Of a DNA stretch of 64,000 nt, positions 32,996 to 39,090 are shown in pieces (within the stretch, counting starts at the first letter, position 1; the number at the start of each line of letters is the position of its first letter). This DNA is from Streptomyces flaveolus (GTDB lineage: Bacteria; Actinomycetota; Actinomycetes; Streptomycetales; Streptomycetaceae): assembly GCF_000716535.1 (NCBI RefSeq), contig NZ_JNWV01000024.1, positions 62,001-126,000 of the forward strand. Direction: 5' to 3'. The notes below the pieces were generated by a model. The model did no database searches, was not told where the DNA came from, and saw nothing but the letters and a program-made list of their open reading frames with translations. The translations under genes and the position numbers were made by a program.

Positions 32996-33240
32996 CATGA
33001 GGCGCATAGTCAGGCTCACCGTCGAGGACGTGATCCAAGACGGCGGACCATGCAGCTACGGCTCGGGGAGCCAGCCTGACCCGGCACCGCGCCGGTCGCC
33101 GCCCTGCTGCTGGAGCACATCGCCGGCCGGGACCACATGAACACCGCCACCCAACCCGGCATCCCGCCGGCTCTTCCCCGACCGCCGCGCCGGTCAGCCG
33201 TCCCGCCCCGACCACCTGTGCGCACACCTCAACGTGGGCG
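32996..33240 (+). pseudogene. Site-specific recombinase (integrase-like) remnant
   Basis: In order, across two or three frames: RRIVRLTVEDVIQDGG, MQLRLGEP, then VAALLLEHIAGRDHMNTAT and SRRLFPDRRAGQPSRPDHL. This is the middle part of a streptomycete tyrosine-recombinase-like protein I recognise from memory. One frame change is at an extra C near 33145. The catalytic Arg-His-Tyr region is not present. It sits between the amidase-like gene and the end of the sialidase-like gene. Confidence 0.5.
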
Positions 33241-33269
33241 GTCGGGTCGGCCGACGGTGAACGCGTCGG

Positions 33270-34742
33270 TCAGCCGGTGCGGAGACTGCTGGTGTACACG
33301 TCCGTACGGTTCTGCGGTGCGCCGGAGTGGGTCTCGGTGAGCACCGCCCGTACTCCCTTGCCGTCCGCCACCAGGCCTTGGTAGTCGCCGAGGAAGTGGC
33401 CCCCGGCGAACGGCGCTTGCAGCCAGTCGAAGACGCGCGAGATCCGTCGTTCGGTCCGGAGCTTCGGGTTTCCGTGCCGCAGCGTGGCCAGTTGGTAGGC
33501 GGTGGGCAGGGTGGTGGTGTTCCCGGGCTTGAGGAAGCGCAGGTCGTAGTACGTGAGCGCGACCGTGCCGCGCTCGGCTACCGCGATCGACGGTGAGAAG
33601 GCCGGAACCCCCTTGGGGCTGATCAGCTCCGGGGACCCCCAGGTGCGTCCGCCATCGGTGGACCGCACCAGCTGGACGGAGTCGAACTTTCCACCGGAGA
33701 AGTCCGAGCCCTCGTAGGCCATGTACAGCGTGCCTGTCCTGGGGTCGACGGCCGGGCTCGGCAGGGTGGCCGCGGCGCGCAGCAGTTTGGTGGGGTCGTT
33801 CGGGTCGACCTCCGGTACGGCAGTGTCCCGGGCCACGGTGACCGGGGCGCTCCAGGTCTTTCCGGCGTCGGTCGAGGTGACCACCTCGTAGCGGGCTTCG
33901 ACGACGGTGCTCAGGTCGTCGGAGTAGGTGATCCGGTCGAAGAAGTCGTACAGGGTGCCGGTGCGCCGGTCGGCGACGATCAGATGACCGATGGTCTGGG
34001 TGTTGGGCACGGTGCTGGTGTCGACGAACCGCCGGGCCTTGCTCCAGGTGCGGCCGCCGTCGCGGGTGAGGGAGATGTAGCCGGGACCGTCGAGGGAGCT
34101 GGGGCCGGGTGGGTCGTTGTCGAGGCGGTTCCAGACCTGGTAGGCGGTGCCCCTGCGGATCGGGTCGGCGGTGAGTGAGGGCTTGTCGTTGAAGAACGGC
34201 TGCTCGTCGACGTGCGTGGTGGTGAGGTTCTGCCAAGTGCGGCCACCATCGCGGGACGTGACTGCCAGGAGGGCACTGCGTGTGCTCTTCGTGAAGTCGA
34301 CGCCCTCTCCCCCGGCGTAGACCGTGCCGTCCGGTCCGGTGCTCACCCAGGGGTCGGAGGCCCGTTCGTAGTCCGCGCCACCGGGGGCGCACAGGCTGAA
34401 CGGCAGCGTGCTCCGGCGGAAGGTGTGGCCGTCCGTGGTCCAGCCGGCCGCCAGGCCACGGGCGCCGCCGTCGTTCCAGCGGTCCTGCTGGAACACGGTG
34501 ACCACACGCTTGGGGTCGCGCGGATCGACGGACAGATACGGCTCGACCTCGGTGCCCGGGTAGACGACGCTGTCGGGGGACCTCGCTCCGATGGTGCACT
34601 TCGCGTACGGGTCGCCGTGGGACACCTTGACCAGTGGGGTGCCGTCGGGGTTCCGGTCTGCTGCGGCGGGAGTCGCGCCGGTGACCGTGACGAGTAGGAG
34701 CGCGGCGGTGGTGACGGCGGTCAGGGGCAGGAAGACGCGCAT
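33270..34742 (-). CDS. Secreted Asp-box (sialidase/BNR-repeat) protein
   Basis: A 490-residue exported beta-propeller. A Sec signal peptide (FLPLTAVTTAALLLVTVTGA, then TPAAA) is followed by four clear Asp boxes: SRDGGRTW, TRDGGRTW, STDAGKTW and STDGGRTW. The repeats fit a six-bladed sialidase-like fold, possibly an exo-alpha-sialidase or another carbohydrate-binding propeller. ATG with GGAGG at ten bases upstream is chosen; longer starts would bury the signal peptide. Catalytic residues cannot be confirmed, so enzymatic activity is uncertain. Confidence 0.85.
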   Translation of the reverse strand: MRVFLPLTAVTTAALLLVTVTGATPAAADRNPDGTPLVKVSHGDPYAKCTIGARSPDSVVYPGTEVEPYLSVDPRDPKRVVTVFQQDRWNDGGARGLAAGWTTDGHTFRRSTLPFSLCAPGGADYERASDPWVSTGPDGTVYAGGEGVDFTKSTRSALLAVTSRDGGRTWQNLTTTHVDEQPFFNDKPSLTADPIRRGTAYQVWNRLDNDPPGPSSLDGPGYISLTRDGGRTWSKARRFVDTSTVPNTQTIGHLIVADRRTGTLYDFFDRITYSDDLSTVVEARYEVVTSTDAGKTWSAPVTVARDTAVPEVDPNDPTKLLRAAATLPSPAVDPRTGTLYMAYEGSDFSGGKFDSVQLVRSTDGGRTWGSPELISPKGVPAFSPSIAVAERGTVALTYYDLRFLKPGNTTTLPTAYQLATLRHGNPKLRTERRISRVFDWLQAPFAGGHFLGDYQGLVADGKGVRAVLTETHSGAPQNRTDVYTSSLRTG

Positions 34743-35153
34743 CCGGGACCTCCTCCGGGCCAGTCGGCCGGGGTACGGGACCGCCGTCATCAGGGCGGCC
34801 TGGGGCACGGAGGCGTACCGGAACACGAGGGTGGGGTGACTCCGCTTGGTCCTTTTCGGCGTTGCGGCAGGTGCCCTTGATGGGCCGAACGACGGAGTCA
34901 TCCCCGGGGCCGTCGAGGAGCACGGCGGAGCCGACCGGCGGGGGCACCGTGCCGGTCGGCTCCTTGGACTTGCCGTGACGGCGCGGTCGTCGCCCGCGTC
35001 AGAAGGACGACTCCGTCACCGTCGGCACATCCGGGCTCGAGGCAGGCGGAACGCTCGTTACTGTGAGCCTGTTCGAGACCTGCCGAGTGTCAACAACGCT
35101 CGTGATCAAATCAGCTGGGAAATCCGAAAATGGATACAGCTAAATCAATACAG
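34743..35153. other. Intergenic region left of the IS630-type element
   Basis: No gene is recognised. ATACAGCTA occurs twice (35134-35142 and 35148-35156); the second copy ends in the TA at which the insertion element begins. Confidence 0.5.
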
Positions 35154-35220
35154 CTAGTGGCTCGTCTCGCATCGTTGACCGAATAATCGACGTGCTGTCC
35201 GGCGGACAGCACGCTGTCTC
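35154..35220 (+). repeat. Left terminal inverted repeat
   Basis: Begins CTAGTGGCTCGTCTCGCATC. The first 29 bases are identical to the complement of the far right end, and about 30 of the next 38 also match. The TA at 35155-35156 is the presumed target duplication. Confidence 0.85.
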
Positions 35221-35244
35221 CAGTGATCGATCTTGGAGGTGGTC

Positions 35245-36341
35245 GTGGGGCGTCGACCGAGTGTGTTCGTCCCGCCGGTCAGCATGGAGGAGGGCCGCAG
35301 GCTGCAACGGGTCAGCCGGACGTCGAAGGATCCGGTGCGGCTGCGGCGGGCGATCGTGGTGCTGATGTCCGCCCAGGGCCAGACGGTCAAGGACATCACC
35401 TCGCTGATGCAGGTCAGCGAAGACTACGTCCGTGACGTGATTGACGCGTTCAACGAGCGGGGGTTCGACGCCCTGGACCCAAAATGGAGCGGGTGACGCC
35501 CGAAGGGGATCAGTGAGCGGGTGCGTGAGCACATCCGTCTGATCGCCCGGACGTCCCCCGCCGACTGGGGCATCACCGGCTTCGCCACCTGGAGCCTGGC
35601 CAAGCTCGCCGACCACCTGACCGAACGGCACGTGGTCCCCCGCATCAGCCGTGAAACACTCCGGCGGATCCTGCGCGAGGGCAAGGTCTCCTGGCAGACC
35701 ACGACCACCTGGAAAGCTTCCACCGACCCGGACTTCATCGCCAAGATGCACCGGATCCTGGCCTTATACGACACCCCGCCCACCGACTGCCGGGTGATAT
35801 GCGTCGATGAGTTCGGCCCGCTGAACCTCCAGCCACGCAAAGGCAAGGCCTGGCGCCCGGCCGGCAGGCCCCACCGCCTGCGGGCGACCTACAACCGTTA
35901 CGGCGGGGTGATGCACATGCTCGCCGCCCTCGACCTGGCCACGGGCAAGATCTACTACCGGATCCGCGAGCGCAAACGGTGGCGCGAGTTCCTCGGCCTG
36001 CTCAAGGCCCTGCGGAGCGCTGGCCTGGGGAGAAGCTCTACATCGTGCTCGACAACTTCTCCCCACACCGGCACGCCGAGGTACGCGCCTGGGCCGCCGA
36101 CAACGACGTCGAGCTGGTCTTCCTGCCGACCTACGGATCCTGGCTGAACTGGATCGAATCCGAGTTCGCAGCCCTGCGCTACTTCGCGCTGAACGGCACC
36201 GATCATCGCACCCACGACGAGCAGAACGCCGCCATCGCCGCCTACATCCGCTGGCGGAACAGCCGGGCCGAGCCGAAGACCCGCTTCGCGCCCGAGTCAT
36301 CGATCCGTCAGTGGACCGAATACCCGGCCAAGGCTGCGTGA
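35245..36341 (+). pseudogene. IS630-family transposase, disrupted
   Basis: The full-length frame would encode about 365 residues. N-terminal helix-turn-helix: LRRAIVVLMSAQGQTVKDIT, then MQVSEDYVRDVIDAFNERGF. The DDE catalytic residues are in VICVDEFGPLNLQP (Asp), LYIVLDNFSPH (Asp) and YGSWLNWIESEFAALRYF (Glu). It is broken twice. An in-frame TGA at 35494-35496 follows DPKWSG where Gly would be expected, and a one-base loss (short G run) near 36016-36020 moves the last third to another frame (ERWPGEKLYIVLDN). GTG with GGAGG upstream is the probable start. Confidence 0.88.
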
Positions 36342-36349
36342 CAAGCCAC
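36326..36349 (-). repeat. Imperfect right end of the IS630 element
   Basis: Its complement starts GTGGCTTGTCACGCAGCC, matching the left end (GTGGCTCGTCTCGCATCG) at 14 of 18 positions and 19 of 24 overall. It contains the transposase stop codon, as is common in this family. No TA follows it. Confidence 0.55.
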
Positions 36350-36455
36350 GAGCTCAGTCGATTGCCCCACGGCGGCAACGTGCACCCTGCCATGGCGAAG
36401 GGGCCGATAGTCTCGGGGAATCTTGGTTCGGATATCGCTACGCACGGAGGCCATG

Positions 36456-36965
36456 ATGATGCGGTTGGCGCGGGGTTCAAGCCGACTGTACGGCGTGATG
36501 CTCATACTGGCGGCGGTAGTCCTGCTCGCGGACCAGCTCACCAAGCTGTGGGCGGTCTCCGCGCTGTCCGACGGCGAGCGCGTCGCCGTGATCCCGCCTT
36601 TGATCTACTTCCGGCTGCTGTACAACCCTGGCGCCGCGTTTTCCATAGGCATCGAGGCGACATGGGTGTTCACCCTGGCAACGGCAGCGGCAGTGGCCGG
36701 CATTCTCTACACCGCACGCCGACTGGCCTCGGCGAGCTGGGCGCTCGTGCTGGGCGCGCTGCTCGGCGGTGCGGTATCCCACCTGGGCGACCGACTCCTC
36801 CGCGAGCCCGGCCTGGGCCGCGGGCATGTTGTGGACTTCATCGACTACGGCCCGTTCGTGGGTAACGTCGCCGACATCGCGCTCGTCTGCGGGTGCGCTG
36901 GGTTGGTGCTGCTCAGCCTGCGTGGTGTGCAACTCGTTAAGGTGCCGGGCGAAGAATCCGCCTAA
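36456..36965 (+). CDS. lspA: Signal peptidase II (lipoprotein signal peptidase)
   Basis: A 169-residue, four-helix membrane aspartyl protease that removes signal peptides from diacylglyceryl-modified prolipoproteins. YGVMLILAAVVLLADQLTKL is helix 1 with the family D-Q-x-T-K. LLYNPGAAFSIG is the N-P-G-A-A-F loop. LLGGAVSHLGDRLL supplies the first catalytic Asp (HLGDR instead of the usual NLIDR), and DFIDYGPFVGNVADIAL the second (NVAD). Three successive ATGs follow GGAGG; the second or third has better spacing. It lies between the IS630 transposase and an IS1380 fragment, inside the inverted ends. It is probably an accessory paralogue rather than the housekeeping gene, which is normally beside pseudouridine synthase and ileS. 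Confidence 0.88.
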   Translation: MMRLARGSSRLYGVMLILAAVVLLADQLTKLWAVSALSDGERVAVIPPLIYFRLLYNPGAAFSIGIEATWVFTLATAAAVAGILYTARRLASASWALVLGALLGGAVSHLGDRLLREPGLGRGHVVDFIDYGPFVGNVADIALVCGCAGLVLLSLRGVQLVKVPGEESA

Positions 36966-37119
36966 CCTCCCTGTTTCGCTTCGAGTGGCTGAGCCGGTCT
37001 GAGCTGGTGTGCAGTGGTGGTTCGGCTGCTTTTCGTCGGCGGGCATGGCCGTGGCCCGACGCGCGGGTCGGGTGCTCCAGGGTTCCTCGGGTGGTGGGCG
37101 GGCAGGGGCGCTGCATGCT

Positions 37120-37287
37120 TCAGGTGGCTGGCCGGGGCAGGGCTGTGAGGCCTACGAACGCGCTGGTCAGGTCGTTTCGCCAGGGCCAGGTTGCGGAGAT
37201 GCGCAGATGGAAGCGGCGACCGCCCCGGGTGATGCGAGCGGCTGCATGCAGCAGCCGGTAGCGGAGCTTGTTCGGCTCGGCGAGATA
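37120..37287 (-). pseudogene. IS1380-family transposase C-terminal remnant
   Basis: The minus strand reads LAEPNKLRYRLLHAAARITR, then GGRRFHLRISATWPWRNDLT and ALPRPAT before a stop. The RYRLLH-AAR, GRR and TWPW blocks are typical of the end of IS1380 transposases. Its 5' side stops where similarity to the IS630 left end begins (about 37285), so the two elements are fused there. Confidence 0.65.
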
Positions 37288-37348
37288 GTCTGCTGGCCGC
37301 CGGGCGGCACGTCGGTTACTCGGTCAACGATGCGAGACGAGCCACTAG
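37282..37348 (-). repeat. Inverted second copy of the IS630 left end
   Basis: The last 29 bases are the exact complement of the left end, and matching continues with gaps in identity to about 37282. TA at 37346-37347 borders it. Confidence 0.85.
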
Positions 37349-37582
37349 GAAATGTGAACGACCTCGTCGGTCACAGGCGGCAAGCGCGGTGTTCAGCACG
37401 GCGCGGACCGTCGCGTAGCGGTGACGGCCTTGGCTTCGAGACGGTCGGTGTCCACCACCGCGAGTGCCGCGGTGTCGGGACGGGCGGAGGCGACCCGCCC
37501 AATGGTGACCGGGTGCCGTCACCCCATACCCACCACCCCGGGTGCACCGGCCGGACTGGTTGCCCAGCCGCGCGCCGACCGG

Positions 37583-37789
37583 TCAAGTGATCGCTTGCGT
37601 GGTCCCGTCAGGCAGCGCGCAGGCCTCACCGGCGTAGGGGCGTGAAATGATCTGTCCGCCGGCGGCCGTGCAGTCGTCTCTGGAGATGTTCGGAGACGAG
37701 GCGGCACCGGCGCTGACAGCGCCGACGGTGCTCACGCCGGCAAGGGTCGCCGCGGCCAGGACCAAGCCCAGGATTCTGCGGATGCGCAT
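37583..37789 (-). CDS. Small secreted peptide with two cysteines
   Basis: A 68-residue protein with a perfect AGGAGGAAGTC-ATG start. The Sec signal peptide is ILGLVLAAATLAGVSTVGAV, then SAGAA. The mature part of about 38 residues contains two cysteines (DDCTAAGGQIISRPYAGEAC) that can form a disulfide. No known toxin or bacteriocin motif was recognised. Similar short secreted peptides are common in streptomycetes and mostly uncharacterised. Confidence 0.75.
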   Translation of the reverse strand: MRIRRILGLVLAAATLAGVSTVGAVSAGAASSPNISRDDCTAAGGQIISRPYAGEACALPDGTTQAIT

Positions 37790-38134
37790 GACTTCCTCCT
37801 CCTCTCAGGCGCCTTCGTTCGGCCTGCGGGAAGGACAAGTCTCAAGACGACGGCGCCCTCTTACTCAGCATGGGCGCTCCGCATGAGGCCCGCGAGGCGA
37901 GGTTGGGCGCCGCGCCCGGGCAGTGACTGCCCGGCCCCGAAGAGGCATGACGTCACCGACCTCGAGTGGCCGCATCGGTACGCCGCGTGCGCGTCGCTGG
38001 GAGCAGGGCGACGTCGATGTCGTTGGCGTCGGGACTGCCCACCGGGGCCGTGTTGTGTCCGGGCAGGCCGGGGGTCGGGGGCGGTCCGTACTGCCTTCGA
38101 CCGATGCCGGCGGACGGTTGCGGCGCGCGGTCCG
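37790..38134. other. Spacer between two small secreted-protein genes
   Basis: No coding signal on either strand. It should hold the promoter of the 68-residue peptide gene. Confidence 0.5.
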
Positions 38135-38410
38135 CTAACGCGGTTCGTGGGCCGCCGCCCGGCAGGCAGCGGTCGCGGCGCCGCCTGCCACTCCGGCCTC
38201 GGTCAGCCCGGTCACACAACTCTGCAGGTCTCCGACCACGCCACGGCTGCAGGCCGCTGTGACGGAGTCGGAAGCGGTGGCACCGGCCAGTTCGGCCATC
38301 TGTGTGCAGGCGGGGATGTCCGCCCGGACCGCGGGAGCGGCGAGGACCGCACCGCCGAGGGTGAGGGTCAGGCCGGTGAGGGCACCGGCGATACGGGTCG
38401 ACGTGCGCAT
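38135..38410 (-). CDS. Small secreted protein with four cysteines
   Basis: A 91-residue protein with signal peptide IAGALTGLTLTLGGAVLAAP, then AVRA. The mature helix-rich part has four cysteines (IPACTQMAELAG, AACSRG, LQSCVTGL, TAACRAA) spaced to give two disulfides. GGAAGGCAGG lies upstream of the ATG. Same orientation as the 68-residue secreted peptide 345 bases away, but no obvious sequence relation. Function unknown. Confidence 0.72.
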   Translation of the reverse strand: MRTSTRIAGALTGLTLTLGGAVLAAPAVRADIPACTQMAELAGATASDSVTAACSRGVVGDLQSCVTGLTEAGVAGGAATAACRAAAHEPR

Positions 38411-38689
38411 GGGACGCACCTGCCTTCCGGATCGGTCGCGCGGTCCTGGTCCCGGCGGGCCGGATCCGCGCGGTGGGCCGCCTGGCGACGCTCGGTGAGT
38501 GGGGCCCCGGCCGACGGGCTCACGGGCTGACCGCACGATTCCGCATCGCGTCCCATGAGCCGCACCGGGACATGGTTGCCAGGCCGAAGGGCACCGGACC
38601 GGACGACACGCACACGGACCTCCACTCGCGGGCCCCTCACTCCAGCGTCGCATCCTCTCCCCCGCCCGTCCTGGGCACCCGGGGGAGGC

Positions 38690-39090
38690 CGCGCCGAGCT
38701 TGTCGTGCTCGCAGCCGCGGTCGGCCGACAGTGCGTCCGGCCGTCGGCGTGGGCGGCCGACGTGACCGGCAACGGTGGGAACCTTGTCCAGCAAAGGCAG
38801 CAGTTGAGTGGCGTTCGTCGCGATTGCCGCCGGTCAGGAGCACCGCGAGCGGGATGCCCCGAGCGCCGCTGAGGACGTGATGCTTGCTTGGTGGGATGAG
38901 TCGATCAGCCATCGGGGCCAGTCGAGTTTGTCCGCCGACCGTAGCTTCGTCAGCAGCACAAGATCCCGAATGGGGCTTGCCAGTCCGCCACCCGTGGCCG
39001 GCCCGTGACCAGCCTCGGCCCGGCCGGCGACAACGGTTCGATCAGCGACCACAGTTCATCCGCGGTGATCCACGGTCGCGGCTGTAGCTT
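38690..39090 (-). pseudogene. IS5-family transposase remnant
   Basis: Minus-strand blocks in order but in several frames: ITADELWSLIEPLSPAGPRL (N-terminus), GARGIPLAVLLTGGNRDERH, and LLPLLDKVPTVAGHVGRPRR followed by RPDALSADRGCEHDKL. These are conserved segments of IS5/IS427-type transposases. The part between the first two is deleted and the C-terminus is gone. Inactive. The 280 bases before it hold nothing recognisable. Confidence 0.7.

Follow-up and report, generated by a model that had tools for sequence, protein, structure and literature searches.

A 2189-bp unit in a Streptomyces genome, bordered on each side by a TA dinucleotide, is very likely a cargo-carrying transposon of the IS630 (Tc1/mariner-like) family, with a left end (LE) and an inverted second left end (LE′) as its termini. 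It lies in the window (the whole stretch of 64,000 nucleotides that was analysed), which is part of contig C24 of a 10.35-Mb Streptomyces genome (G000). The order inside the unit is LE, broken transposase, former right end (RE), a gene for signal peptidase II (lspA), a relic of an IS1380-family element and LE′, as listed below.

35157-37345: inserted element, 2189 bp, with TA at 35155-35156 and 37346-37347
35155..35156: TA target duplication, left copy, inside CTAG (basis: empty site in G039, locus L212)
35157..35220, + strand: IS630 left end (LE); outer 29 bases, from 35154, identical to LE′
35263..36341, + strand: broken IS630-family transposase, about 87% identical to the intact relative in locus L036, which is annotated as IS630 family
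36325..36352, - strand: internal former right end (RE), 22/28 like LE, outer TA lost
36399..36962, + strand: cargo segment, lspA and its upstream region, about 93% identical to copies without IS630 ends on a plasmid of NBC_01240 and in genome G747
36456..36965, + strand: intact gene for an additional (accessory) signal peptidase II (LspA) of 169 aa; both catalytic Asp residues present, two conserved positions altered (Asn to His, Phe to Gly)
36962..37282, - strand: IS1380-family relic, one end and the 3′ part of the transposase, beginning at the lspA stop codon
37282..37345, - strand: LE′, the second left end in inverted orientation, which forms the right terminus of the unit
37346..37347: TA target duplication, right copy (basis: empty-site alignment)

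We compared LE (35154-35220) with the inverted copy (37282-37348) and found an 88% match over 67 bases, with the outer 29 bases identical; the original prediction had described perfect inverted copies of 29 bases with uneven similarity to about 67 bases. The TA that it had placed at each border was seen within CTAG at both outer ends. When a 20-base left-end pattern was searched in the unit's own genome with up to 3 mismatches, two matches were obtained, both exact and both at the ends of the unit, and the reversed control pattern gave 4 matches under the same threshold, so that only the exactness of the matches is informative. The original prediction had mentioned neither the breakage of the transposase nor the IS1380 relic between lspA and LE′.

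Empty site and insertion as one block

We sought the right flank of the unit (37349-37810) in 199 genomes, of which 15 (the unit's own genome included) matched at 1e-6, and took the four with the longest matches (G039, G053, G116 and G032). The counterparts of window flanks 33233-35142 and 37376-38698 are separated by about 60 bases in G039 and G053, where the left flank ends at 35142 or 35140. The uninterrupted site in G039, which belongs to the same genus, reads ACAGC-TA-GGAAATG (aligned G039 letters ACAGCTAGGAAATG), and the window at the same site reads ACAGC-TA-(2189 bp)-TA-GGAAATG; in other words, ACAGCTA is followed by 2189 bases and then by TAGGAAATG. The corresponding site is CCAG in G053 and, with more change, also in G116, which has both flanks; G032 has the right flank alone within the 19 kb examined. 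The target duplication is therefore of the IS630 type (one TA in G039; CCAG in G053). An empty TA site in close relatives was one of the checks that the original prediction had proposed, and the empty site together with a single TA duplication indicates that a single insertion event, at one TA, had LE and LE′ as its termini. The alignment thus decides in favour of the earlier reading of the far end.

Approached from the left flank, no empty site was obtained from the plasmid of NBC_01483, since synteny with that plasmid ends at 35089. Two short differences from G039 and G053 were observed nearby: about 160 bases are missing from the window at 34979-34988, between a BNR-repeat (sialidase-like) gene and the unit, and a second short deletion lies directly to the right of the unit, before 37376. 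For a further unit, carrying SDR and LysR genes in genome G048, the right flank was matched in 3 of 149 genomes including G048 itself, and the matches in the other two begin only at base 118 or 123.

Recurrence of the layout in other genomes

We scanned one genome per species with the transposase of NBC_00846 as the query, which yielded 164 confirmed relatives, and used the best 80 of these 164. An inverted LE was called at up to 8 mismatches in 28 bases within 4 kb of the transposase, with the ordinary right end excluded. Of the best 80 of the 164 relatives, 20 have an inverted LE on the downstream side of the transposase and 1 has it on the upstream side; direct copies of LE were found downstream in none and upstream in 2. 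These two are probably the own left ends of copies with a truncated reading frame. Markov shuffles of the downstream flanks gave a mean of 0.25 inverted left ends, compared with the 20 observed. At 14 of the 20 positive loci, LE was also present at the expected place before the transposase (it is missing from L165, L173 and L193, and the downstream ends of L165 and L183 are doubtful). Adding three units from other searches (L040, L096 and L098) and the window unit brings the total to 24.

The hosts belong to Streptomyces, Kitasatospora and Nonomuraea, and ten cargo types were counted besides lspA, most of them either one enzyme, or a regulator paired with an enzyme or an exporter. The Pfam search covered one member in most of the cargo sets, and L119, L160, L098 and L193, with ambiguous cargo, stand outside the following tally.

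GNAT acetyltransferase: L117, L192, L096
second GNAT: L122
SDR and LysR: L118, L121
histidine phosphatase: L120
MFS and TetR: L133, L036, L110
NAD-epimerase-like protein and AraC/DJ-1 regulator: L140, L186
cupin: L161, L172
DUF4267 and TetR: L177
147-aa protein, no Pfam match: L129, L040
182-aa protein, no Pfam match: L141, L173
lspA: window

Three of the cargo sets occur with both ends at different sites, and two more show each end in separate pairs. The unit of S. durocortorensis (L129) and that on a plasmid of Streptomyces sp. WAC00288 (L040) share 98% identity from LE up to the second base beyond LE′ (flanks, 25% and 37%); for L117 and L192 the identity is 96.6% over a stretch that opens 24 bases before LE and closes with LE′ (flanks, 52% and 25%), and L140 and L186 are alike at both ends (flanks, 37% and 32%). 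In the pairs L141/L173 and L133/L110 the similarity ends together at LE′, and in L133/L036 it begins together at LE. CTAG was present at both ends in 13 of the 24 units, a tally in which several other units have a truncated frame or no LE that was found, and in which the left position of L186 is wrong. Thus, the original prediction held both for lspA as the cargo of an IS630-bounded unit, given the empty site and the like units elsewhere, and for the far end as a second left end, given the empty site, its single TA duplication and the same layout at sites in other genomes.

In the two SDR and LysR units, L121 and L118, the cargo is about 64% identical at the DNA level and the transposases are 83% identical; judging from these sequences, cargo and transposase may have long stayed together.

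We then looked for further copies of the lspA unit, as had been proposed with the original prediction, and this search came back without a second copy of the 2.2-kb unit in other genomes or plasmids: 116 plasmid records matched some part of the unit and none covered 80% of it. No second place with both LE and the window lspA was found in the relatives searched, among the matches listed, and in its own genome the LE pattern occurs at the two ends of the unit only. The window unit was accordingly seen to have inserted only once. Protein cluster P0001 groups 8 sequences from 4 contigs, and P0002-P0006 show 95-96% identity; the unit may thus have additional copies among the bearers of P0001-P0006.

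Transposase, internal right end and origin of LE′

The window transposase is interrupted by an in-frame stop codon at 35494 and by a frameshift close to the position of codon 252 in the intact relative. Its pieces scored 27.8, 96 and 68 bits against NF033545, for which the cutoff of 100 bits applies to a whole protein, and these scores, with the identity to the L036 protein, mark it as an IS630-type DDE transposase. It is nearest to the transposase of the SDR and LysR unit of S. cyaneochromogenes (89%). Because no whole transposase can come from this copy, and the only other IS630 matches seen in its own genome are fragments of a divergent relative on C76 and C21 (67-87% identity), the window copy is probably immobile now.

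The original prediction had placed a normal right end (19 of 24 positions) after the transposase. A right end is indeed present there, but it is no longer a normal one, reading CCACGAG where CCACTAG is expected. The unit is thus bounded by LE and the inverted LE′, with the native right end internal and lacking its TA, and since that end is not a terminus we filed the unit as an IS630 derivative and not as an ordinary IS. The same CCACGAG is common to L036, L103 and the window, which carry different cargo, and this hints at a shared ancestor before cargo exchange.

LE′ was closer to LE in 18 of the 24 units and closer to RE in 3, and the remaining 3 were tied. Where a unit's own LE is in place, as in 17 units, LE′ resembles it over 25 to 106 bases. 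Such varied lengths would fit remnants of second inverted IS copies, and the units would then be degenerate composite transposons. In the window, LE′ differs from LE at 8 of 67 bases and is therefore no recent duplicate.

A quick tree of the transposases, with 91 rows, placed 20 of the 23 cargo rows in one set of 30 rows, mostly from Streptomyces, and 3 in Streptosporangiaceae. The cargo label, assigned with L165 and L183 left out and L036 added, changed 10 times, compared with 20.6 times in shuffles. Ten changes indicate that cargo carriage does not form one clean lineage; it is clustered but was probably gained or lost several times.

The lspA segment and the IS1380 relic

We compared the cargo segment with other accessory lspA loci. 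A plasmid of Streptomyces sp. NBC_01240 matches window positions 36399-36962 at 92.7% identity, and genome G747 matches 36399-36964 at 92.8%; both matches extend into the region upstream of lspA. No IS630 end (up to 9 mismatches in 28) was found around these two genes, in 16.6 kb and 14.5 kb, respectively. The same lspA in relatives without either end had been named in advance as an observation against the unit, and it was literally found, on plasmids and in G747. An end-free lspA elsewhere provides a plausible source of the cargo and does not refute insertion as a unit.

The IS1380 relic starts at the lspA stop codon and leaves the LspA protein whole; its homology stops at 37282, and LE′ follows directly. 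Pfam gave no match for the relic or for an open reading frame of its relative L043, and the name IS1380 is therefore taken from annotated plasmid features under the match. A simple scan of 36340-37050 revealed no sigma-70-like promoter. Proteins of nearly the same length as the cargo LspA occur elsewhere at 95-96% identity. Among the neighbourhoods of accessory lspA genes, the plasmid copy L034 shares with the others only an open reading frame overlapping lspA and one for a histidine kinase, and L046, L237 and L238 have several neighbours in common. On a plasmid of Streptomyces sp. NBC_01108 (L035, 8106-8637), an insertion of 13 bases, which repeats the adjoining sequence, divides the same lspA into two annotated genes; NBC_01238 is listed likewise.

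Proposed mechanism and alternatives

In the mechanism that we propose, an IS630 transposase, now acting only in trans, would bind LE and LE′, and everything between them would move by cut and paste. LE′ would be the remnant of a second, inverted IS copy, one of the two copies having shrunk to its end, and with the decay of the internal right end such units would have become degenerate composite transposons. ISY100, a member of the same family, is described in the matched text of one report as a cut-and-paste element that requires the transposase alone and whose mini-elements with 30 bp per end moved (PMC2170065). By analogy, LE and LE′, with 29 identical outer bases, should suffice for movement.

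Two other histories of the window unit were weighed. A simple IS630 element might have landed beside lspA, the far repeat being an unrelated relic of a second IS630 copy and the block never having moved together; this would accord with the end-free lspA elsewhere, with the IS1380 relic between lspA and LE′ and with the 8 differences in 67 bases between the two ends. However, the empty site, with LE on one side of a single TA duplication and LE′ on the other, largely refutes such a history, and both the recurrence of downstream inverted left ends far above chance and the other units, whose similarity runs the whole way between LE and LE′ although their sites differ, add to its great improbability. 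Alternatively, an IS630 or mini-element could have entered at CTAG, and an lspA-bearing element could later have entered at the TA regenerated next to the right end of the first, followed by small deletions. IS630 elements do use TA and leave TA at each border, and the absence of TA at RE means that the junction there was altered. Nevertheless, this history requires two insertions as well as deletions, no second terminus was seen beside RE, the same CCACGAG stands in the MFS and TetR unit of NBC_00846, and other units appear to be mobile as blocks; we consider it most unlikely. A nested order of events, in which the cargo joined ends already in place, keeps a small probability. A single transposon with LE and LE′ as its termini is therefore the reading that we carry forward.

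The cargo LspA and signal peptidase inhibitors

The original prediction had noted an apparently intact lspA-like gene between the ends, and the protein fits the Pfam profile of the family (Peptidase_A8, 98 bits against a cutoff of 25), scoring 60 bits with NCBIfam TIGR00077, under the cutoff of 73.95. The catalytic aspartate pair is present, with HVVDFID and NVADIAL aligning with solved LspA structures. The housekeeping LspA of the same genome, on contig C6, is 43% identical to the cargo protein, and both have the catalytic aspartates; the housekeeping protein reads GGALGNLTDR and VFNLAD, compared with GGAVSHLGDR and VGNVAD in the cargo protein. In alignment with 6ryo and 5dir, the cargo protein is changed at Asn106 (to His) and Phe132 (to Gly), in the numbering of S. 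aureus LspMrs, and thus keeps 12 of the 14 highly conserved residues, as read from alignments. These 14 residues cluster around globomycin, according to the matched text of the report that describes them (PMC6952399). The Ser-His and Gly-Asn forms occur in all 18 aligned close relatives of the cargo protein. Among the accessory LspA proteins of L217-L227, Ser/Thr-His likewise replaces Gly-Asn in 10 of 11, with no motif read in L227, and Gly-Asn replaces Phe-Asn in 11 of 11 (18 of 18 for each change in the alignment of close relatives), at conserved positions of the active site.

The cargo LspA may be a functional additional signal peptidase for lipoproteins, perhaps with lower sensitivity to inhibitors of the globomycin type. 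Such lower sensitivity, suggested in the original prediction, would agree with the two altered residues among those conserved around globomycin, and an inhibitor bypass by the cargo LspA is plausible from the sequence. The globomycin cluster holds an LspA homologue of its own, GlobF, in the matched text of a study that also names LspA3/LspA4 as LspA paralogues of the myxovirescin cluster (PMC9943842), and a spare LspA near such antibiotics therefore has precedent; for GlobF and the other LspA of its producer, that text reports no difference at the 14 conserved residues. There is an even chance, in our estimation, that the cargo protein has no role in inhibitor tolerance and instead processes lipoproteins of a particular plasmid or niche, or of metal resistance. 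A distant lspA of Citricoccus adjoins an ArsR regulator and a P-type ATPase, and in genomes of the Streptosporangiaceae type close accessory LspA proteins occur widely, which would suit a function of this kind. However, no metal gene adjoins lspA in the two nearest plasmid contexts viewed, and the ArsR/SmtB regulator of NBC_01108 is about 7 kb from lspA; the changes around globomycin and the presence of a homologue in the globomycin cluster, as given in the matched text (PMC9943842), also speak against this alternative.

Comparison with known systems

IS630 elements are usually regarded as bare insertion sequences, and the recurring form with a duplicated left end provides a simple route from a cut-and-paste IS to a gene carrier. 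It may explain how small genes travel among Streptomyces chromosomes and plasmids, and the lspA case bears on whether signal peptidase II can spread as a mobile resistance gene for natural inhibitors, which are products of Streptomyces themselves. A broader view, which we hold to be possible but doubtful, is that actinomycete IS630 transposons became gene carriers by exchanging their right end for a second left end, repeatedly took up different cargo, of which eleven kinds were seen, and in one case mobilised an lspA variant with altered residues at the inhibitor site, as a transposable target bypass against antibiotics of the globomycin type.

IS630-family insertion sequences such as ISY100 and IS630 share with the window unit the transposase family (NF033545, DDE_3), short terminal inverted repeats and TA duplication. 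In contrast to them, the right terminus of the window unit is an inverted second left end beyond the cargo and the native right end is internal; in cargo units, that end is either missing or a decayed internal remnant. Composite transposons of the Tn10 type contain inverted IS copies. The window unit resembles these in that its cargo is enclosed by two left ends that face outward and belong to one IS family, but a single IS body remains, the other being reduced to an end alike over 25-106 bases; in the window, the second copy is 67 bp only, not a second complete IS. An IS630-type IS has been named as a possible former of composite transposons in the matched text of one paper (PMC3606827).

Transporter IS (tIS) are IS derivatives with passenger genes, as outlined in the matched text of PMC9330008, and the window unit is like them in having one transposase, a passenger gene unrelated to transposition and one pair of ends. 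It differs from the tIS of that text in that its far end is a duplicated left end, not the native right end. A passenger in a single IS-like unit that moves whole is indicated here by sequence only (the empty site, and units with the same cargo elsewhere), and on these grounds the window unit is filed as a cargo-carrying, transporter-IS-like variant of IS630. No literature on cargo-carrying IS630 elements, or on IS630 with a duplicated left end, was found among the full-text matches listed, with ISfinder outside the scope of the search. Passenger-carrying IS are thus already known, and the IS630 form with a duplicated left end appears new among the matches listed. Mobile insertion cassettes and TIME-COMP elements likewise have cargo between ends that are movable in trans, and the window copy is now of this kind; unlike those in the matched text (PMC4133298, PMC3913671), it belongs to IS630 and not to Tn3, and some of its relatives keep an open transposase frame. 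Finally, the cargo protein is comparable to GlobF and LspA3/LspA4, which in the matched text are extra LspA proteins beside a housekeeping one (PMC9943842), but it is encoded on a transposon and differs at two of the 14 conserved residues.
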